Of a DNA stretch of 64,000 nucleotides, positions 3,583-29,753 are shown one piece after another; the first letter of the stretch is position 1; each line of letters begins with the position of its first letter. The notes below the pieces were generated by a model that ran no database searches, was not told the DNA's origin, and saw only the letters and a program-made list of their open reading frames with translations. Origin of the DNA: Gammaproteobacteria bacterium HGW-Gammaproteobacteria-1 (GTDB lineage Bacteria; Pseudomonadota; Gammaproteobacteria; Thiohalomonadales; Thiohalomonadaceae). The stretch is taken from the NCBI GenBank assembly GCA_002840095.1, contig PGZL01000003.1:1-64000 (forward strand). The letters are read 5' to 3'. The translations under genes and the position numbers were made by a program.

Positions 3583-4020
3583 AAGAGATAAGTCTTGTGA
3601 AAGTGACGTTCAGCGGGCGATAGGCAGGGGCGGTCCGACGCCGCGGTCGCGAATGCGATTCGCTCCTACGCAACAATGGCCCCTGTAGGAGCGGACCGTG
3701 TCCGCGATAGCGCATCGACATCAGCGCCCGTAGGGGACCGCCCAGGCGAAATGCCGAATCCAGTAGAGATAAGCCTGCTCAGTACGGTAGCTGTAGTGCT
3801 TGCACCGCAATACGTCACGCACCCGCTCCGAGAGTCGTTGTCCAGTCGTGGCCGTGGGGGTGTCCCTCCTGAGTCATGTCTGAGCCTCCCTGTCGTATAT
3901 CGCCATATGGTGTATAAATATACATGCATGAAGCGGTCACGCAAGGGATATCAGTGAGAATCACGGCAGGCTCGTATAAGGTGTTGATTCTTATGAGAGC
4001 CCGAACCGGGCGACTCCACC

Positions 4021-4062
4021 GATATCACGCCATATCGGTCAATCGACCGATATGGTTGATAT
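4021..4062. promoter_or_regulatory. Nested palindrome, possible operator
   Basis: Perfect 11-bp arms CCATATCGGTC / GACCGATATGG (4030-4055, 4-base spacer) are enclosed by outer arms GATATCA / TGATATC. The outer right arm overlaps the -35 box of the promoter at 4056-4083, as a repressor site would. The binding protein is unknown. Confidence 0.6.
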
Positions 4063-4083
4063 CCGGTAATTTTGCGGTATATT
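4056..4083 (+). promoter_or_regulatory. Sigma-70-like promoter facing the cassette array
   Basis: TTGATA (4056-4061), 16-base spacer, TATATT (4078-4083), about 160 bases upstream of the first cassette gene and pointing into it. It is the best candidate for a Pc-type promoter that expresses the captured cassettes. Confidence 0.5.
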
Positions 4084-4245
4084 CGCCCATGGGCTCCCGC
4101 CAAAGCAGGATGCAACCGCCCGGAATCAAAGGTGTTTCTATGAAATGGAACAATTCATCGGCCGCGATATCAGTCATATGGCCGTCTAATCATCGTTAGA
4201 GCCTTACCGAAACCGAACAATCCGCAGAAATTTTGGAGAAACATC

Positions 4246-4491
4246 ATGGGCGAATGGTCCGATTACTTCGAAGACTTCCCTGAGGAAAACCCGGCCAATT
4301 GGGTTGACGGTAGGTTTGACCCAGCTGCAGCTGCACGGCAACGCGAAATTGAGAGCGCCAATCGCAAAGTCGCCAAAGACTCAGCTGCATTGCAGAAAGA
4401 AATGTTCAAGATGGCTGAGGACGCAAAGAAAAAAGTCAAGGAGAGGCAAGAGGGTAATGGCACTCAATCCACCAAAGACTCAGGGCTCTAA
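4246..4491 (+). CDS. Hypothetical protein (gene cassette 1)
   Basis: 81 residues, soluble, acidic at the N-terminus (MGEWSDYFEDFPEENPANW), with a basic helical Lys/Glu-rich C-terminal half that may form a coiled coil. No family recognised. TTTTGGAGAAACATC gives a good ribosome-binding site before ATG 4246. The stop codon lies inside the attC R'' box, as is usual for integron cassette genes. The cassette begins at GTTAGAGC (4195-4202), the exact reverse complement of its own R'' box GCTCTAAC. Confidence 0.7.
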   Translation: MGEWSDYFEDFPEENPANWVDGRFDPAAAARQREIESANRKVAKDSAALQKEMFKMAEDAKKKVKERQEGNGTQSTKDSGL

Positions 4492-4572
4492 CATTGCGCT
4501 CAACCTCGCTCCCTCGGTCGCTGGACGCTGCGCGATGAAGCCGCGCAGCGCCGGTTAGCTCTACGTTACGTT
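4485..4572 (+). repeat. attC recombination site 1
   Basis: R'' GCTCTAAC (4485-4492) and terminal core GTTACGTT (4565-4572) flank an imperfect palindrome with inner arms GCTGCGCG/CGCGCAGC. The R'' box is complementary to the start of cassette 1 (GTTAGAGC, 4195), the signature left by site-specific capture of a circular cassette. Confidence 0.8.
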
Positions 4573-4594
4573 CACTAATGAATCAGAGTGTTGA

Positions 4595-4957
4595 ATGAAC
4601 TGGGAATTAATAAACGGGATCACAGGGATAGTAAGCGCTGTATGCGCGGTTATTGGTATTGGGTATTTTGGTTTTCAAAAAGATAAGCCAGCTCAAGAGG
4701 CCGCCATATTAAGCGTGCGAAAGTTGATGTCATTTGTTGTTGCATGCTCAGGTTGGGCACTATGTTGCCTTAGTTTCCTCTGGGTTGCAGAACCCTATGG
4801 CTGCTGTCCAATGTCATCGGACTACCAGCATTTCTTTGGTGTAATACTGGGGTTTCCGGCAATAGTAATATTTATGTTTGGCCTTAGCTTGCTGCAAGAC
4901 CCAAAACGTAACAAGTCAAGCAAGAAGGACGCGCAAACAACGCGCGCCTCTTCTTGA
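4595..4957 (+). CDS. Small membrane protein (gene cassette 2)
   Basis: 120 residues with three likely transmembrane segments: about residues 7-26 (GIVSAVCAVIGIGYFGF), 45-66, and 82-99 (FFGVILGFPAIVIFMFGLSL), ending in a Lys/Ser-rich tail. Orphan membrane proteins are common cassette cargo. No function can be assigned. The stop codon falls within attC site 2. Confidence 0.7.
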   Translation: MNWELINGITGIVSAVCAVIGIGYFGFQKDKPAQEAAILSVRKLMSFVVACSGWALCCLSFLWVAEPYGCCPMSSDYQHFFGVILGFPAIVIFMFGLSLLQDPKRNKSSKKDAQTTRASS

Positions 4958-4968
4958 GGCGTTATGTT
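4905..4968 (+). repeat. attC recombination site 2
   Basis: A compact 64-base attC. R'' AACGTAAC (4905-4912) is the exact reverse complement of the cassette 2 start GTTACGTT (4565-4572). The inner stem CAAGAAG...GCGC / GCGCGCCTCTTCTTG closes on a short loop. The core GTTATGTT (4961-4968) begins cassette 3. Confidence 0.8.
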
Positions 4969-5002
4969 GTAAGAGCTCTAGATTCTCGACAAGGAACACG
5001 AA

Positions 5003-5764
5003 ATGGGAAGAGTTAAAGAAGACTGGATGCGGCATCAAGAGCTGGAGCCAATGCACGAATGGATCGAAGAAAACTACGGTGATGACGCTGGTGAAGAGGG
5101 TTCCGAAACCTGGGAAGAAGCAGTTCAAGCATATGATAAGTATTGCGAAAATCTACAACAACAAGAAGATAAACGGCGCTTTGAGGAAGAGACTGAGTGG
5201 TATATCCACACTCAAACCCAAATAGGAAAATTTGACACACAAATTCGCAGTGTTCATGAGCTTTTAGAGGTCGGAGTCAGTAGTGAAGCTCAGTTTAGTC
5301 TGCTTGTCATGTTGCATGGCCACATCGTGGCGGCAGTAGAATCTTACTTAGCTTCAACATTTATTCGAGAAGTTACTAACTCAGAAGATTTGATCAGAAA
5401 ACTTATTGAGACAGATCCTGTGTTTTCAGAAAGGACAATTACATTAAAAGAAATATATGAGAAGCATGAAACTCTGAAACTAACAGTTGCCACGTATTTG
5501 CGCGATCTTATCTTCCACAATATCGCGAAAGTCAAGCCGATGTATAAAAGTGTTTTGAACTGTGATTTTGGCGATATTTCTTGGCTCTTCGAGGCGGTGA
5601 ACATTAGGCATCATTGCGTGCATCGTGCTGGACTTGATAAGGATGGAAACAAAGTTGAGCTTTCAAAAGATTCCGTAAGGGAACTGGCAGCTCGCTCTAG
5701 TAAGCTCGTACACTTTATCGAAGTAAGAGTCGATAAAATACTTTTTCCTAATGAAAGCTTCTAA
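5003..5764 (+). CDS. HEPN-like protein, possible RNase (gene cassette 3)
   Basis: 253 residues. The N-terminal third is acidic and Glu-rich; the C-terminal two thirds are helical. Near residues 197-205 it has IRHHCVHRAG followed by D-K-D-G, matching the R-x4-6-H motif and flanking pattern of RiboL-PSP-type HEPN domains. HEPN proteins of this group often act as RNases in abortive infection or toxin systems, but activity here is inferred. AT-rich codon use differs sharply from the chromosome. It starts at the ATG 42 bases after the cassette boundary and ends one base before the R'' core of attC site 3. Confidence 0.65.
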   Translation: MGRVKEDWMRHQELEPMHEWIEENYGDDAGEEGSETWEEAVQAYDKYCENLQQQEDKRRFEEETEWYIHTQTQIGKFDTQIRSVHELLEVGVSSEAQFSLLVMLHGHIVAAVESYLASTFIREVTNSEDLIRKLIETDPVFSERTITLKEIYEKHETLKLTVATYLRDLIFHNIAKVKPMYKSVLNCDFGDISWLFEAVNIRHHCVHRAGLDKDGNKVELSKDSVRELAARSSKLVHFIEVRVDKILFPNESF

Positions 5765-5852
5765 ACATAACAATTTGTTCAAGTCGTTCGCGTTGCTCAC
5801 TGGGACGCTCCGCCGCGATGCGGCTCCAACCCCCCTTGACAATGCGTTGGGC
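5764..5852 (+). repeat. attC recombination site 3
   Basis: R'' AACATAAC (5764-5771) is the exact reverse complement of the cassette 3 start GTTATGTT (4961-4968). The arm pair TTGTTCAAG / CTTGACAATG and the inner CGCCGC/GCGG stem lead to the canonical core GTTGGGC (5846-5852). Confidence 0.85.
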
Positions 5853-5865
5853 GTCATGACCGGGA

Positions 5866-5953
5866 GATCAATGGGGTCAGAGTCATTGAATTTTTCGGAC
5901 CACTGATTTCGTGATGTTATGGGCCTAGGCAAATGACTCTGACCCCATCGATT
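5866..5953. mobile_element. MITE/REP-like inverted-repeat element in the cassette array
   Basis: Perfect 17-bp terminal arms ATGGGGTCAGAGTCATT (5871-5887) and their complement (5932-5948) enclose 44 bases with no coding capacity. A short direct duplication CATCGATTCACCC follows. It separates the core of attC site 3 from the next cassette boundary (5977), where no intact attC partner exists, so it is an insertion or the remnant of a lost cassette. Confidence 0.6.
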
Positions 5954-6007
5954 CACCCCATCGATTCACGCACAACGTTATGTGTAAAAGAATATCGAGA
6001 AATACAA

Positions 6008-6355
6008 ATGGCATTTAGTGAATTCGAATTAAAAAGATATGAGAAGGTGTTAAAGGCATATATCGAAAGACACAGGCCGCCCGCACACATCCGAAATGAG
6101 CTTGATCTCGATTACAGGCAAAAAGGACAAAGCGTAGAAATTTTTGAAATTCGACAGCGCTGGGATAGCAAGAAAGAGAAAATAGAGAATCCTGTTGCAA
6201 AAGCAACGTACGTCAAAACTCAAGATGTCTGGAAAATATACTGGCAAAGGGCAGATTTGAAGTGGCATTCCTATGAGCCTCATCCTACTGCCAAGAGCCT
6301 AGAGGAGTTCTTGAGGGTTGTTGAAGCAGATGAGTATGCTTGCTTTTACGGTTAA
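6008..6355 (+). CDS. DUF3024 family protein (gene cassette 4)
   Basis: 115 residues. The layout and C-terminal signature (WKIYWQRADLKWHSYEP, ending DEYACFYG) match the DUF3024 family of small soluble proteins of unknown function, often found on mobile DNA. I chose ATG 6008 because the frame further upstream runs through the insertion element and across the cassette boundary. The following R'' box CACATAAC is an 8/8 complement of this cassette's start GTTATGTG (5977-5984). Confidence 0.75.
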   Translation: MAFSEFELKRYEKVLKAYIERHRPPAHIRNELDLDYRQKGQSVEIFEIRQRWDSKKEKIENPVAKATYVKTQDVWKIYWQRADLKWHSYEPHPTAKSLEEFLRVVEADEYACFYG

Positions 6356-6357
6356 AA

Positions 6358-6446
6358 CACATAACAAGTCACTCCAGCCGACCCAGTGCCGCGTCGCTCC
6401 TATCGTCGCTATGCGGCACCGGTCGTCTGAGTTCAATCGTTAGGAT
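6358..6446 (+). repeat. attC recombination site 4
   Basis: R'' CACATAAC (6358-6365), outer stem CCGACC/GGTCG, inner stem GTGCCGC/GCGGCAC, core GTTAGGAT (6439-6446). R'' pairs perfectly with the start of its own cassette at 5977. Confidence 0.85.
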
Positions 6447-6460
6447 GCTCAGGAAAAATC

Positions 6461-6868
6461 ATGAAATTGGAAATTAGCAATGCCAGTGAGGTCATCAACC
6501 CTTCAGCGGCACAAATCGCCGATGCCTTGGCAAATCTTCCCGGCGGCAATGAGTCATTTGCCATCCTGTCAATTGATCCACAAACTTACGTGCAGGTTGC
6601 CGGCTCGCCTGTGGATGGCTTCACCCTTGAGTATCGTGACGGCAGCGAGGAGAAGCACTTTGAGGCCATCGGATCGCCCATTGACCTCAGGTTGGTCACA
6701 AGCGTCTTCCAAAAATACGCAGCTGGAGATGCCAGTTGGCAAAGCCTCGTCTCTTGGCAGCCGTGGACTGCTGGTTCCCTTGGCAGTACGTCGCTTTCCC
6801 GAATCACTCTCTTCATTGTTGGCGTTGTGGTTTTGATCGGGGGGCTGTACCTGGCATTTGCCGCCTAA
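6461..6868 (+). CDS. Hypothetical protein with C-terminal membrane anchor (gene cassette 5)
   Basis: 135 residues. A soluble N-terminal domain contains FTLEYRDGSEEKHFEA and a later YAAGDASW...SW segment, faintly reminiscent of Imm1-type immunity proteins. One transmembrane helix (about 115-134, ITLFIVGVVVLIGGLYLAFAA) ends the protein. The stop codon lies in CGCCTAAC, a plausible R'' box (6 of 8 complementary to the cassette start GTTAGGAT), but no complete attC follows, so the array seems to decay here. Confidence 0.6.
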   Translation: MKLEISNASEVINPSAAQIADALANLPGGNESFAILSIDPQTYVQVAGSPVDGFTLEYRDGSEEKHFEAIGSPIDLRLVTSVFQKYAAGDASWQSLVSWQPWTAGSLGSTSLSRITLFIVGVVVLIGGLYLAFAA

Positions 6869-7016
6869 CCAGAAAAGGCGGCAGAACAATTTATTTCCGG
6901 GTCAGTCGACTGAAAATAGATCTGTCAATTTTTACGTTTGGGTCTGGGTCGGTGGGTAAGCGGCTTTCCTTTCTCGGAGGCCGAGTTTGGTCACTATACA
7001 ATAAGAGAAAATTGAG

Positions 7017-7355
7017 ATGGATAATGCGAATAATATCTATAGCCCACCAAAATCTGAATTGACGGTAGACGCAACTATCAGACCAAGTATTTGGGTTGTT
7101 TTGGTGGTCATTTTTCTTACATTGCTCTTATGCTTGATTCTCCTCCTTGAATCTTCTCTAAGTGCTGGTGTTCCCACGCTGATACCTAGCATATTTGCAT
7201 CAGTTGTGCCGGCATTTGTTTTTGTTCTTGTTTTTCAAATTTGGAAACGATTTCGAAATTCCCGTTCTAGGTGGAAAATTTATGCGTGGTGTCAATTTTT
7301 ATTTGTCCTAGGGCAAATCTCGAATTTATTGCAGACGATTGGATCAACTGCATAA
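7017..7355 (+). CDS. Small membrane protein
   Basis: 112 residues. The N-terminus MDNANNIYSPPKSEL resembles the NPY-PP-xx-EL leader of small cassette-borne membrane proteins. Two or three transmembrane segments follow (about 24-45, 52-75 and 89-105). AT-rich codon use matches the preceding cassettes, so it may be a sixth cassette whose attC has decayed; I found no clear attC after it. Function unknown. Confidence 0.6.
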   Translation: MDNANNIYSPPKSELTVDATIRPSIWVVLVVIFLTLLLCLILLLESSLSAGVPTLIPSIFASVVPAFVFVLVFQIWKRFRNSRSRWKIYAWCQFLFVLGQISNLLQTIGSTA

Positions 7356-7421
7356 ACAAAACAGGACAAAAGGGGCGGAACAAAAGGGGGGCGAGGGATT
7401 AAAAAAAAGACCAGTAGTCGT

Positions 7422-7501
7422 GGTTGGTTAAAGTTTAATCCCTCCGTCCCCTTATGCTCATTGGTTGGTTAAAGTTTATCCCTCCGTCCCCTTATGCTCA
7501 T
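7422..7501. repeat. Tandem duplication of about 40 bp
   Basis: Two adjacent copies (7422-7462 and 7463-7501), each containing GGTTGGTTAAAGTTTA and CCCTCCGTCCCCTTATGCTC, differ by a single-base indel plus a two-base spacer. The second copy supplies the first possible ATG (7494) of the next gene. Confidence 0.85.
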
Positions 7502-7526
7502 CGTCCGTTTTATCGGGGGGCGTCAA

Positions 7527-8363
7527 ATGCGGATTTGTTACTTGAGTGTCGTGTGTTGGAAAAGACGTTATGACAGGGGTTGCAGAACGTCTATCTGTTT
7601 TTTATTAACAGCGATATTGCTCGCTACGGTAGTGCCCTACGCAATGGCAGATGTTAGGTCTTCCTATAATGAAGACATTAGGATGGTTTTTATGTTGGAG
7701 CAAAGTGGGCGTGTGCAGGAGGCTATAACGCTGTGGGAAAAAATGGATAACAAGTACTCCAGCGTAAGTGATGGAAGATATGAGGATGAGCTTGGGAAGC
7801 TATATGCTCGGCACAGCAATTATGAGGCTGCCGAGAAAGTTTTTCACAAAGGTTTAAGCAAATCCACAAAATACACAGGAGTGTATTACTCTCTTTTTCT
7901 TTTGTTGCTCCAAAGCGAACGTCTTGATGAGGCGATTGCTTTGGTAGACAAAGGGTTTGTAAGGTTCGGGCGATGGCCCGAAGGTCACTTGGCTAAAGCT
8001 CAATTGGCGCTTAAAAAAGGAGAGTACGAAAAGAGTATAGTGGAGGCGAAAGAGGCACTTAAATATGCTGAATATTTCCCGGCTATATATAACGTAGCCT
8101 ACGCGAATTTTAAGCTTGGCCGATACGGTGATTCAGCAGAGGTTTATGGGGATTTGCTTAAAAAAGATCCCGCCTTTTCTATTGATCGAGACGGGGTGGT
8201 TATGTATGCACTATCACTTGCTCACACGCGTCGATACAAAGAGGCCATTGATGCCCTAAAGAATCTAGAAAAACATGGTGTAACTGATGGTGATATTAAG
8301 ATACTAACGAGTGAGATAGAAGATTTTATGGCAAAAGCCGAGAAACGGGGGCAGTACCCTTAA
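7527..8363 (+). CDS. TPR-repeat protein with N-terminal signal/anchor
   Basis: About 278 residues. A hydrophobic segment (ICFLLTAILLATVVPYAMA) suggests export or membrane anchoring. The rest is helical with at least four tetratricopeptide-like repeats, including YEAAEKVFHKGLSKSTKYTG and RYKEAIDALKNLEKHG, so protein-protein scaffolding is likely. I prefer ATG 7527 after a G-rich ribosome-binding site over ATG 7494, which lies in the tandem repeat. Low GC content groups it with the accessory island. Confidence 0.65.
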   Translation: MRICYLSVVCWKRRYDRGCRTSICFLLTAILLATVVPYAMADVRSSYNEDIRMVFMLEQSGRVQEAITLWEKMDNKYSSVSDGRYEDELGKLYARHSNYEAAEKVFHKGLSKSTKYTGVYYSLFLLLLQSERLDEAIALVDKGFVRFGRWPEGHLAKAQLALKKGEYEKSIVEAKEALKYAEYFPAIYNVAYANFKLGRYGDSAEVYGDLLKKDPAFSIDRDGVVMYALSLAHTRRYKEAIDALKNLEKHGVTDGDIKILTSEIEDFMAKAEKRGQYP

Positions 8364-17072: not shown

Positions 17073-17277
17073 TGATTCGAGATACAAGAGTAAAGGGGAA
17101 AGATGCAAGGGGATGAGTGCGCTGTGCGCACGGTTGTTGGAACTTGGAATCAGTACGAGCACAGCGAGTTCATCCCCTTGTATCTTGTCACTTGTAACTT
17201 GTATCTCTTGTTCGGGTGGATGCACTGCGTTTATCCACCCAGCGGCTGAACAAGCCAACACAAATGAGGAACCAACC
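17073..17277. repeat. Inverted repeat between nif operon genes
   Basis: GAGATACAAG (17,080-) and CTTGTATCTC (to about 17,209) form the outer arms of a 130-base imperfect hairpin that includes AAGGGGATGA / TCATCCCCTT. A family C half-copy (GGTGGATGCACTGCG) follows. Confidence 0.7.
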
Positions 17278-24381: not shown

Positions 24382-25737
24382 TCAGGCGCCGTGCAGGGGA
24401 TGGCGGATATCGCAACACACCACCAGCAAGGCTCCGTTCTGCTCGATGGCCATGGACAGCGTAATGTTCATGGCGGCATCGGTGACGGAGAAATAGGGGC
24501 GTGTCACCTGCACGGTGCCGGGCTCGCTGACGGCGCGGCGGAAGTATGAGCGTCCGCTCCAGTCGCAGCCCGCAGTTTCGCACAGCGGTGCGAAGCGGGG
24601 CTGGGGCGTGGTATCCGCCGTGGGCGCCACGGCGTTGCTGCCGACCTGGATGCCGTTGCCGTCGAGGACGTAGCAGCGCAGTACGTCCGCGGCGGTGAAC
24701 AGCGCTGCCGACGCGGCGGTGATTTCGTCGCCAGCGGCAAGGTTGCCGGCACATTGCCTGAAGGCGTCGATGCAGGGTTGCAGCGCCGCGGCGTGGCGCG
24801 CGGCGCGGTCATGCAGCCGAGCCCGTGCCGTGTCGTTGAGCGTAGCGAAAGCGGAGGCGGAGGCGTGGGTGAGCAGTTCAGCCGCCGCGGGGCGGGCGAA
24901 GAAAAAGCCCTGGGCGAAATCCGCATCGGCCTCGATGGCCAGCAGCGCCTCGGCTTCGTCCTCGATGCCTTCCATCACCACCAGGCAGCCCGCCTCGTGC
25001 AGCAGCGTCACCAGTCCGGGCAGCATGCGGCGCGCGGCGGGATTGTGTCGCGCGTGCTGCATCAGACCGCGATCCAGTTTCACCATGTCCGGTGCCAGGC
25101 GCAGGATGCGATCGAAGTTCGAGTGGCCGGCGCCGAAATCGTCGATGGCCACCAGACAGCCCAGATCCTTGTAGTAGCTCACCGCATCGGCCAGCAGGCC
25201 TTCGTCGGTAATTTCGTTTTCCAGTATTTCCACCACCACTTGGGACGGGCGCAGCGCGCTGCGCGTCAGCAGCTCGGCGAAAAACGGGCCGTACAGACTC
25301 CCTTCGACGACCACCCGGGGGTTGATGTTGAGAAACAGCCAGCGATCCGGTGCCGCCAGCGGCCGGTAGTTCTGAGTGTGCAGGATGCGGCAGGTGCGGT
25401 CGAGATGAACGATGCCTTCGGTGGTTTCGGCACTGGCGAATACCTGCAGCGGCGATACCGCGGCGCCGGACGCGTCGGTGGCTCGCAGCAGCGCCTCGTA
25501 GCCGACGGGGCGGCGGTGGACCAGGCCGAAGATGGGTTGATAGGCGCTGGTCAGTTGATAGCCTTTGAAGGTGGCGGTGGCGCGGCCGCCGTCATCGCGC
25601 ACGGCGTCGTGCAACATCTGTTCGAGAAACGACGCGCGCGTCTGTTCCGCTGTCGGGTGCGACAGCTCCGGGAGCGCCTCGCGGCGGCGGGTATCGCTCA
25701 GTGCCATGGACGGGGTGAATTCAGCGGGGGCGTTCAT
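24382..25737 (-). CDS. EAL-domain c-di-GMP phosphodiesterase with C-terminal sensor domain
   Basis: 451 residues. An EAL domain occupies about residues 60-310 with the expected catalytic set: EALLR, the Asn in FLNINPRVV, EILENEIT, IDDFGAGHSNFD, the Lys in VKLDRG and VMEGIEDEAEA, so hydrolysis of c-di-GMP is likely. The C-terminal third resembles a Cache-type ligand-binding domain (YVLDGNGIQVGSN, WSGRSYFRRAV). No GGDEF domain or membrane segment is evident. Its start overlaps the end of the Cys-rich gene, so the two are coupled and may belong to the NifA-driven SIR2 transcript. Confidence 0.88.
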   Translation of the reverse strand: MNAPAEFTPSMALSDTRRREALPELSHPTAEQTRASFLEQMLHDAVRDDGGRATATFKGYQLTSAYQPIFGLVHRRPVGYEALLRATDASGAAVSPLQVFASAETTEGIVHLDRTCRILHTQNYRPLAAPDRWLFLNINPRVVVEGSLYGPFFAELLTRSALRPSQVVVEILENEITDEGLLADAVSYYKDLGCLVAIDDFGAGHSNFDRILRLAPDMVKLDRGLMQHARHNPAARRMLPGLVTLLHEAGCLVVMEGIEDEAEALLAIEADADFAQGFFFARPAAAELLTHASASAFATLNDTARARLHDRAARHAAALQPCIDAFRQCAGNLAAGDEITAASAALFTAADVLRCYVLDGNGIQVGSNAVAPTADTTPQPRFAPLCETAGCDWSGRSYFRRAVSEPGTVQVTRPYFSVTDAAMNITLSMAIEQNGALLVVCCDIRHPLHGA

Positions 25738-25948
25738 TGCGTGCGGAGGCCACTTTCTTGCTTACCTTGGAAGCCAGGTAGTTGAGGAAGTCGTCCATGT
25801 TGTCGTAGTCCATGTCGAGGGCGAAGGCGGTGACCGTATCGGTGAGCTGACGCAGGCGCGCGATTTCCTCGTGGGAGCGGCCGCAGGCACGGCAGTGGGT
25901 GCCGTCCTCGGTGCAGGCGGTGCGGTTGACGCAGGTGGTGAATTTCAT
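25721..25948 (-). CDS. Small Cys-rich protein, DUF1289-like
   Basis: 75 residues. The N-terminal half has a possible zinc knuckle (CVNRTACTEDGTHCRACGRS) resembling DUF1289; the C-terminal half is helical. ATG 25,948 is preferred; the frame upstream runs into repeat F. It overlaps the start of the EAL gene by 17 bases and follows the SIR2-like gene after a repeat-filled gap. Function unknown. Confidence 0.7.
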   Translation of the reverse strand: MKFTTCVNRTACTEDGTHCRACGRSHEEIARLRQLTDTVTAFALDMDYDNMDDFLNYLASKVSKKVASARNERPR

Positions 25949-26140: not shown

Positions 26141-26998
26141 CTACACGGCAGCAGATTTTTCCTGTTGCGGCCAGACCCCGTCGAGCAAGGCGCTGTAATC
26201 GGCATCGATCACCTCGATGCCGAGCTTGGCGCAGAAGCGCCGCTCCTTCGCCGTCGCGTTGGGGATCAGCGCCCAGCCGGCGGGCTGCGCCGCGTCGTAA
26301 ACGATATTGGACAGCACCATGCGCTCGGTGTCACGGGTCAGCGACAGGCCGACCAGCAGGTAGCGCATGCCCTTGCGCTGCTGCTTGAGGAAGGAGGGAA
26401 TGGCGAAGCCGCCCATCAGCTCGGTGATGTAATCGACGTAGTCGGCGTCGGCGGCGATATAGCTGGCCTCCGGCTGCGGGCAGCCCATGGGCTTGAACAG
26501 CACCGGCAGCGAGGCGTCGGCTTCTTCCTGCGTCACCTCGCGGTAAGCGCTGCTGTCGTATTGATAGATACGGAAACGGAAGCCGCCGACCATGCGGGCG
26601 AAGCCCTGGATGAGCAAATGCGGTGTGTTGCGGTAGCTGTCCAGCAGCTGCGTATCGCGGTTGATGTCCACCACGTAGCGCGGCTTGATGGCGGCCAGCC
26701 AGTCGTGCAGCGGCGCGCGCGTCCACTGGGTGTCGCCATAGGTGCGGGTGAGAAAGCGGTTGACGAAGCTGCGACCTTTTTTCAGTTCCAGGTTCATGGC
26801 GGCGCGGGGGAATTCGTACATCAGCTTGGGTGCCATGGGTTTGCCGCCGTTCATGGCCAGGATCAGGCTTTCGCCGTCGGCGGGGATGGGGGCGCCGGCT
26901 GCGTCGACGGCGCCGCGCAGGGCGCCGGGGCCGAGGTAGGCGGCGATGCTGCCGTCTTTCAGGCCGGCAACGATTTCATCGAGGTGCAGAGTGGTCAT
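26141..26998 (-). CDS. SIR2-like protein, predicted member of the NifA regulon
   Basis: 285 residues. The layout fits SIR2-like NAD-binding proteins: an N-terminal glycine loop (SIAAYLGPGALRG), RYVVDINRDTQL in place of the usual TTNYD segment, and RYLLVGLSLTRDTERM like the FIGYSLSD strand. The catalytic His-Gly region appears altered (FKPMGCPQPE), so hydrolysis is uncertain. ATG 26,998 has AAGGAG at ideal distance; an upstream ATG (27,037) would lie in the promoter. Sigma-54 and NifA sites precede it, and draT and nifH are neighbours, hinting at an NAD-linked role in nitrogenase control. Confidence 0.75.
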   Translation of the reverse strand: MTTLHLDEIVAGLKDGSIAAYLGPGALRGAVDAAGAPIPADGESLILAMNGGKPMAPKLMYEFPRAAMNLELKKGRSFVNRFLTRTYGDTQWTRAPLHDWLAAIKPRYVVDINRDTQLLDSYRNTPHLLIQGFARMVGGFRFRIYQYDSSAYREVTQEEADASLPVLFKPMGCPQPEASYIAADADYVDYITELMGGFAIPSFLKQQRKGMRYLLVGLSLTRDTERMVLSNIVYDAAQPAGWALIPNATAKERRFCAKLGIEVIDADYSALLDGVWPQQEKSAAV

Positions 26999-27032
26999 GG
27001 AAGGCTCCTTGCGTGCATGTATGCGTAAGCAT

Positions 27033-27048
27033 TGCAATTAGCGGGCCT
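27033..27048 (-). promoter_or_regulatory. Sigma-54 promoter of the SIR2-like gene
   Basis: Read on the minus strand: AGGCCC-GCTAA-TTGCA, with the invariant GG and GC ten bases apart. Start codon 26,998 is 35 bases downstream, leaving a short leader containing AAGGAG. The first base A matches the nifB promoter. Confidence 0.7.
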
Positions 27049-27110
27049 AACCGTGAAATGAGCGTTTTACTTGGGTTTGCGGCGGTGCGGTGTCTGTTCG
27101 CGCACTACAT

Positions 27111-27126
27111 TGTCGCGAACGTGACA
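27111..27126 (-). promoter_or_regulatory. NifA upstream activator sequence for the SIR2-like gene
   Basis: TGT-CGCGAACGTG-ACA on the plus strand, an exact TGT-N10-ACA site that starts TGTCGC like those of nifV, nifH and nifE. It is about 70 bases ahead of the sigma-54 promoter. Confidence 0.75.
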
Positions 27127-27152: not shown

Positions 27153-27563
27153 TCATTGCGCCCAGTTTTCCACCCGCAGCCCGTCGATACGCTTGAATTC
27201 GCGGCCGTTGTTGGTGACCAGGGTGAGGTCTTCGGCCAGGGCATGGGCAGCAATCCACAGGTCGTTGTTGCCGATGGGAGTGCCGGATTTTTCGAGCTTG
27301 GTGCGTATCACGCCATAGATTTGCCCGGCCGTCTTCGGCAAGGCCTTGACGTTGATGATTTCCGTCATCTGGTTCAGTGCCGCCAGATTCTGCTCGTGGT
27401 GCAGGCTGCGCTCCACACCTCGCCGGAGTTCTCCATAGGCGATCACCGACATACTCACCGCATCATCCGGCAGGGCGGCGATGCGTTCCGCTACTGAGGC
27501 AGGATGGCGTTTGATGAAGTAAATGCAGATGTCCGTATCCAGCAAATAGCGTGATTCCTTCAC
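27153..27563 (-). CDS. vapC: VapC-type PIN-domain ribonuclease toxin
   Basis: 136 residues. The acidic PIN active-site residues are visible in YLLDTDICIYFIK, YGELRRGVE and GNNDLWIAAHAL, followed by LVTNNGREF. VapC toxins cleave tRNA or rRNA when VapB is lost. It overlaps vapB by four bases. Confidence 0.92.
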   Translation of the reverse strand: MKESRYLLDTDICIYFIKRHPASVAERIAALPDDAVSMSVIAYGELRRGVERSLHHEQNLAALNQMTEIINVKALPKTAGQIYGVIRTKLEKSGTPIGNNDLWIAAHALAEDLTLVTNNGREFKRIDGLRVENWAQ

Positions 27564-27862: not shown

Positions 27863-28705
27863 TCAGGCCGCGATACAGACCTCATACACCCCGCCGATGA
27901 CTATGTACTCGTCCTCGCCCTTGAGCCGGCCCGGCAGCAGGCGGCTGTAGGCGAGGATCTTCGGCAGCGGCACGTCCACCTCCAGGATGCGGTCGCCGAA
28001 TTCGTCGGCCCGTTCGCGCTGGTCGGTGAAGGAGTTGGCGCTATTGAGGATGAGGATCTGCCGGCCCTTGTCGGGGCTGGCCAATACGTCGTGTTGTTCC
28101 AGGCGGTTCACCCCGCGGTACAGGCGCAGGTGTTGCGTGTCCGGATGCTGCCGCGCCAGTTCGTATTGGCAATAGGCATAGAGCAGGTCGAGCTGGGCCT
28201 CCAGGGCGTTGGTGCTGTACAGGCCTTGGGCGCGTGATTCCATATAGGCGTGATAGGCCGCGTCGTTGACGTCGCGGATCGGCGCGCCGTGATGGCGCGG
28301 CAGCAGGCCGAAGCGCGATTCCACCCAGCCTTTTACTACCGCCCCCTCGCGGCCGTCGGCATCGAAGGACCAGCCGCGCAGCACGCGCAGGTAGTCCGCC
28401 TTGTCGCGGTGCAGCCGCGAGGACGGATCGAAGCCCGCCTCTTCCGGTGCATCGAGCAGGAAGTGCGCGGCGAGGTAATCCATGAACAGGTGGGCGCGGT
28501 GTTCGGCGCGCTCCAGCGGCGCCAGGCGGCGGAACAATTCACCGTGCAGTTCGGCCACGCCGTCGATGTGCAGCGCGGCGGGGTGGCGCTGAAAGGTGAG
28601 GCTGCCGAGGATTACCGCCGGCAGGTTGCAGCGGTTGATGGGCAGGCGCGCGCAGGCCGGCAGCGAGGGATTTTTTCCGGTGTCGGGTGCTTTGTCGCTA
28701 ACCAT
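27863..28705 (-). CDS. draT: NAD+-dinitrogen-reductase ADP-D-ribosyltransferase DraT
   Basis: 280 residues. DraT transfers ADP-ribose from NAD+ to NifH Arg101 under ammonium or darkness/energy stress. Family segments include LPINRCNLPAVILGSLTFQ near residue 22, LRLYRGVNRLEQHD, the STS-like NSANSFTDQRERADEFG, and the acidic EDEYIVIGG near the C-terminus. It is transcribed away from nifH; its first codons overlap the NifA site of the nifH promoter. It is not next to draG, unlike most draTG operons. Confidence 0.93.
   Translation of the reverse strand: MVSDKAPDTGKNPSLPACARLPINRCNLPAVILGSLTFQRHPAALHIDGVAELHGELFRRLAPLERAEHRAHLFMDYLAAHFLLDAPEEAGFDPSSRLHRDKADYLRVLRGWSFDADGREGAVVKGWVESRFGLLPRHHGAPIRDVNDAAYHAYMESRAQGLYSTNALEAQLDLLYAYCQYELARQHPDTQHLRLYRGVNRLEQHDVLASPDKGRQILILNSANSFTDQRERADEFGDRILEVDVPLPKILAYSRLLPGRLKGEDEYIVIGGVYEVCIAA

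Positions 28706-28742: not shown

Positions 28743-29753
<1,011 letters not shown>

Follow-up and report, generated by a model that had tools for sequence, protein, structure and literature searches.

The window, the whole 64-kb stretch of DNA that was analysed, contains a nif island in which a gene for a SIR2-like protein lies in the opposite orientation to nifH and is preceded by a ribosome-binding site, a sigma-54 promoter, and a NifA upstream activator sequence (UAS). The positions of these features and of the neighbouring genes are given in Table 1.

Table 1. The pnfA-type gene, its control elements, and its neighbours in the window
Feature	Position	Strand	Description
pnfA-type pseudo-SIR2 gene	26141..26998	-	285 aa, 31.5 kDa; ATG at 26998
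NifA upstream activator sequence (UAS) TGTCACGTTCGCGACA	27126..27111	-	sequence and conservation upstream of orthologues
Sigma-54 -24/-12 promoter AGGCCCGCTAATTGCA	27048..27033	-	GG-N10-GC spacing
Ribosome-binding site AAGGAG	27005..27010	-	read from sequence
DUF1289-like small Cys-rich protein gene	25721..25948	-	Pfam DUF1289 match weak, under cut-off
EAL-domain protein gene	24382..25737	-	Pfam EAL 165 bits; begins within the 3' end of the DUF1289-like gene
VapC (PIN) toxin gene	27153..27563	-	NCBIfam VapC NF047863, 146.5 bits; between draT and the promoter
draT	27863..28705	-	Pfam DRAT 343 bits
nifH	28872..29753	+	divergent from the pnfA-type gene

A scan of named genomes for relatives of the protein yielded at least 528 matches, of which the best 80 were retained. 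The DUF1289-like gene is probably the second gene of the pnfA-type transcript, and the EAL gene could be the third if the genes are co-transcribed; a homologue of the former is found downstream of the pnfA-type gene at 21 of 80 compared loci, mostly at a distance of 45–180 bp, and EAL homologues are present at seven. If both genes are read from the same NifA promoter, c-di-GMP turnover may be tied to nitrogen fixation. The VapC gene, which is preceded by a probable antitoxin gene, lies outside the pnfA-type system; among the 80 loci, VapC occupies this place only in the window and at one other locus (L013, 90% identical). At a locus of the same genus (L003), draT directly precedes the pnfA-type gene. 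The distance of three genes between draT and the pnfA-type gene, reported in the earlier note, results only from the vapBC pair that intervenes in the window.

Two further peculiarities of the window were observed. The element GGTGGATGCGCTGCGCTTATCCACC is present in five near-identical copies, where none would be expected by chance, at positions 17215, 22482, 22522, 26062, and 26099; the copies form inverted pairs at two places, and one pair lies between the pnfA-type and DUF1289-like genes. The G+C content of positions 4001–8000 is about 46% versus 60–70% elsewhere, which suggests that this stretch is inserted DNA outside the nif region.

NifA site and sigma-54 promoter

In the window, the centre of the UAS lies about 84 bp from the GC of the -12 element. 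Neither the pattern TGT-N10-ACA alone nor a loose -24/-12 pattern alone was accepted as proof, both being at chance level in the window; TGT-N10-ACA, for example, was seen eight times versus 7.4 expected. The extended form TGTCGC-N7-ACA occurs at four sites versus 0.57 expected (a count reached in 0 of 100 shuffles), including those preceding nifH (28693) and nifE (40385), in agreement with the earlier observation that TGTCGC is common to this site and the nifH and nifE activator sites.

The promoter call was settled by conservation among orthologues rather than by rarity of the pattern. We surveyed 350 bp of upstream sequence at each of the 89 orthologous loci for which it was available in full, with random windows from the same loci as the control. 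A UAS was found upstream of 77 of the 89 orthologues (random mean 9.0, maximum 16), and a UAS combined with a properly spaced -24/-12 promoter upstream of 70 (random mean 3.2, maximum 8). The NifA site and sigma-54 promoter read in the window are therefore kept across orthologues, and NifA/sigma-54 control is a property of the whole gene family.

Distribution of the family and its relation to draT

Ten further genomes of the genus, family, and class contain orthologues that are 58–90% identical. The class sample comprised 303 genomes of Gammaproteobacteria, 28 of which carry nifH (26 over the cut-off and two with truncated copies); strong family matches were obtained in 24 of these 28 genomes and in none of the 275 others (p = 9e-32). 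Of the 398 genomes sampled across the phylum, 17 had strong family matches, and nifH was present in 14 of them. Among the three family-positive genomes without a nifH match, G354 has a nifD match over the cut-off, while G378 and G558 have only weaker nifD-family matches under it; the latter two genomes likely, but not certainly, carry nif genes. DraT was found in 13 of 36 family-positive nifH genomes versus 20 of the 24 family-negative nifH genomes searched (Fisher odds ratio 0.11, p = 5e-4, relatedness not being corrected for). It was found in none of the 19 family carriers belonging to one Pseudomonadaceae-like bacterial family, a search in which the control genomes also had no match, while the same profile found DraT in other searches. 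The family tracks nifH and not draT.

Of all neighbouring genes, nifH accompanies the family most consistently. Divergent nifH is located upstream in 50 loci, and draT intervenes in 24 of them, while in 25 nifH is directly adjacent without draT. Several group I genes are preceded by nifQ. The members of group II, which share about 28% identity with the window protein, are located behind nifB-fdxN-nifZ-nifT on rhizobial plasmids and in other genomes; the rhizobial relatives belong to nifA-nifB-fdxN-nifZ-nifT operons, with draT absent from their listed neighbours, and those of R. etli and Mesorhizobium sit behind nifZ-nifT. With five canonical SIR2_2 proteins as a small outgroup, the two groups come together in a single clade (support 0.996). 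One group II member (L102; G032:C3:2697-3464), enclosed in an open frame of 590 aa, scores highly both with SIR2_2 (2e-14) and with the nif family (1e-75, the query alignment having included its sequence), and so may be an early-branching form.

The earlier note had proposed a possible role in DraT/DraG control and suggested a survey of nif clusters for orthologues beside draT. Such an arrangement is seen at the loci with draT between nifH and the pnfA-type gene, which make up about half of the loci with divergent nifH. We consider it very unlikely that the protein works with DraT/DraG by tuning the NAD supply or the ADP-ribosylation of NifH: draT does neighbour the gene in the window, and both proteins have NAD-related folds, but DraT is rarer among family-positive than among family-negative nifH genomes and missing from the Pseudomonadaceae-like carriers, and Pseudomonas stutzeri A1501, which needs the related gene pnfA, is reported to lack both DraT and DraG (PMC2820453). 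On–off switching of nitrogenase without DraT/DraG has been reported for P. stutzeri in the same work (PMC2820453). The draT gene is a neighbour in the lineage of the window and is dispensable for the family.

Fold and active site

The protein matches Pfam SIR2_2 (PF13289) with 31.0 bits, above the gathering score of 24.5, while NCBIfam contains no specific model for it. A sequence search of the PDB with the single protein gave no meaningful match, and one with the family profile gave only weak matches to KomC; since these searches were uninformative, a fold search was needed. An AF2 model built from 54 sequences (pLDDT 92.9, pTM 0.91) folds as SIR2, and its best matches by Foldseek and VIA were KomC (chain 9v0g_E, Z 18.1, 3.4 Å over 238 residues), ThsA (BcThsA, Z 18.1), and DSR2 (Z 17.8). 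Profile and structure prediction, by which the earlier note proposed to check its description of the gene as SIR2-like, thus both returned the SIR2 family.

The altered His-Gly region pointed out in the same note is also real. The window protein has K-P-M-G where canonical relatives have K-x-H-G, with Met 171 at the position of the catalytic His, which was aligned via canonical SIR2_2 proteins of other genomes (TTNYD, K-x-HG), the hhalign comparison with the incomplete KomC sequence being ambiguous there. The catalytic His is kept in only one of 91 group I and one of 10 group II members; the residues found at position 171 are Met (80), Leu (7), Thr (2), and His (1) in group I and Leu (7), Tyr, His, and Trp (one each) in group II. 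At the position of the catalytic Asn (TxN motif; residue 113 of the window protein, where it is Asn), 90 of 91 group I members have Asn, while all 10 group II members have Trp. Most members retain GxG, but not the Ser that usually follows it. Judging from these alignments, the active site is decayed, while the DADYVDYITELMGGF.IP block stays conserved, being near-invariant within group I. Loss of the catalytic His would most likely leave the protein capable of neither NAD hydrolysis nor protein deacylation, contrary to the role in NAD consumption considered earlier.

The alternative that the protein is an active enzyme, either a deacetylase, as the authors of a Zymomonas mobilis study proposed for ZMO1821 (PMC8600466), or a NADase using another residue, is unlikely. 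The SIR2_2 profile match, the retention of Asn 113 and the GxG loop in group I, and the conservation of H98 and H127 in the same group speak for it; however, of the 90 group I members in which the His position is occupied, 89 have Met, Leu, or Thr, and nine of 10 group II members have Leu, Tyr, or Trp, with Asn additionally replaced by Trp in group II. H98 also occurs in canonical SIR2 proteins and therefore looks structural. Cys 173 and Cys 256 are the only cysteines of the window protein, so the four-Cys zinc site of sirtuin deacylases is absent. The protein of Marinobacterium lacunae (L080, 10001-10804) is the sole group I member in this set with both K-P-H-G and the catalytic Asn; since group I keeps the Asn and this member has the His as well, activity is possible in some members.

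A phage-defence SIR2 effector present in the nif island by chance would be an extremely improbable explanation. The nearest solved folds are indeed those of defence NADases, and one group II member has a weak match to ThsA, but PADLOC gives no match for the window protein, the family is confined to nif genomes and equipped with a nif promoter, and the catalytic His is lost. KomC, ThsA, and the SIR2 domain of DSR2, SIR2_2 NADases that share the whole-length fold with the window protein (VIA Z 17–18, rmsd about 3.5 over 236–243 residues), are phage-defence proteins with the catalytic residues of TTN and HG, whereas the nif family is without the His.

PnfA and other nif-linked SIR2-like proteins

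The closest described counterpart is pnfA (PST1325) of P. stutzeri A1501, which adjoins nifH in the opposite orientation and has TGT-N10-ACA and -24/-12 elements (Yan et al. 2010, PMC2820453). Its expression was shown by RT-PCR to depend on NifA and RpoN, and the 31.7-kDa product was assigned to a family with two subfamilies, present in diazotrophs only (PMC2820453). The window gene resembles pnfA in its place in the nif island opposite nifH, its promoter elements, the mass of its product (31.5 versus about 31.7 kDa), its restriction to diazotrophs, and the existence of two groups; it differs in that draT and vapBC lie between it and nifH and that the DUF1289-like and EAL genes follow it. The window protein is 53–60% identical to Pseudomonadaceae-like orthologues with the pnfA layout, PnfA of A1501 itself not being among the aligned sequences; identities of 49–55% were given in the PnfA paper for members from outside Pseudomonas and Azotobacter (PMC2820453). 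That paper does not mention a SIR2 fold and compares residues 176–240 with UspA/ETF-alpha (PMC2820453), while PST_1325 is annotated as a SIR2 family protein in a 2024 paper (PMC11332353). The evidence that the window gene is an orthologue of pnfA is thus strong but indirect, coming from its location, promoter, product size, and annotation and from close relatives rather than from a direct alignment.

The statement in the earlier note that such a protein has no described role in nitrogenase regulation is outdated. A non-polar pnfA mutant retained 23% of nitrogenase activity with unchanged nifH mRNA and was complemented, a result from one paper on one strain; the mutant was normal anaerobically without nitrate but failed with nitrate, and it still grew on N-free semisolid medium (PMC2820453). 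The loss of activity at a constant nifH mRNA level would also suit a nitrogenase maturation factor that helps to assemble the Fe-S or Mo cofactor, its SIR2 fold being purely structural and free of any ligand, and the location of group II behind nifB-fdxN-nifZ-nifT and of several group I genes after nifQ is in line with such a role. We nevertheless find this alternative less likely, since the normal anaerobic phenotype without nitrate and the growth on N-free medium point to a protein that helps under certain conditions rather than to a step in assembly.

Taken together, the data make it likely that the window gene is a pnfA orthologue encoding a non-catalytic SIR2-fold aid to nitrogenase, driven by NifA and sigma-54 and without need of DraT/DraG. 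NifA would bind the UAS and activate sigma-54 RNA polymerase at the promoter, as predicted here and established experimentally for pnfA in P. stutzeri, so that the protein would be made together with nitrogenase. Its SIR2/Rossmann fold would derive from NADase-like SIR2_2 proteins, with the catalytic His missing. As shown for pnfA, the protein would act post-transcriptionally, keeping nitrogenase active during respiration with nitrate or with little oxygen. It would most likely do so without catalysis, by binding a nucleotide, for example NAD(H) or ADP-ribose, and it may contact nitrogenase or its electron supply, with DraT/DraG not needed. A non-catalytic, possibly nucleotide-binding accessory protein of nitrogenase is the most likely description. 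Of the initial reading, the nif-promoter-driven SIR2-fold protein with a disrupted catalytic motif has stood, while the tie to DraT/DraG or NAD consumption has not. More tentatively, one could hypothesise that a nif-specific pseudo-enzyme arose a single time from a fold of the SIR2 NADase type and that, by sensing NAD(H) or ADP-ribose, it regulates the electron supply or the protection of nitrogenase in respiring cells, providing DraT-independent post-translational control across proteobacterial diazotrophs. With the fold and the lost active site of this conserved, NifA-controlled, nitrogenase-supporting protein now recognised, its function becomes directly testable. The SIR2 name alone is insufficient to call such nif-island genes deacetylases.

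Similar genes have been described in other diazotrophs. In Azoarcus BH72, azo0536 is located two genes from nifH (azo0538) and has predicted RpoN and NifA sites (PMC3916325). Rcc03262 of R. capsulatus was found in the wild type but not in the nifA1-A2 mutant (PMC6925177); like the window gene, it and the 'SIR2 family protein' genes behind nifT in Rhodovulum and rhizobia are nif-linked, and its place beside nifT suggests that it belongs to group II, whose rhizobial members differ from the window protein in their low identity (about 28%) and in the change of the catalytic Asn to Trp. ZMO1821 of Z. mobilis, which is more abundant under N2 fixation (PMC8600466), is comparable by its description, rather than by sequence, as a SIR2-like protein encoded in a nif island; Z. 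mobilis is reported to lack draT/draG, unlike the window (PMC8600466, PMC8594446). In the open-licence full-text literature, we found no paper linking PnfA to a SIR2 pseudo-enzyme. It was already known that pnfA depends on NifA and RpoN and that its loss affects nitrogenase, and genes of this kind are known but neglected; what seems new here is the joining of PnfA to a SIR2 fold with lost catalytic residues.
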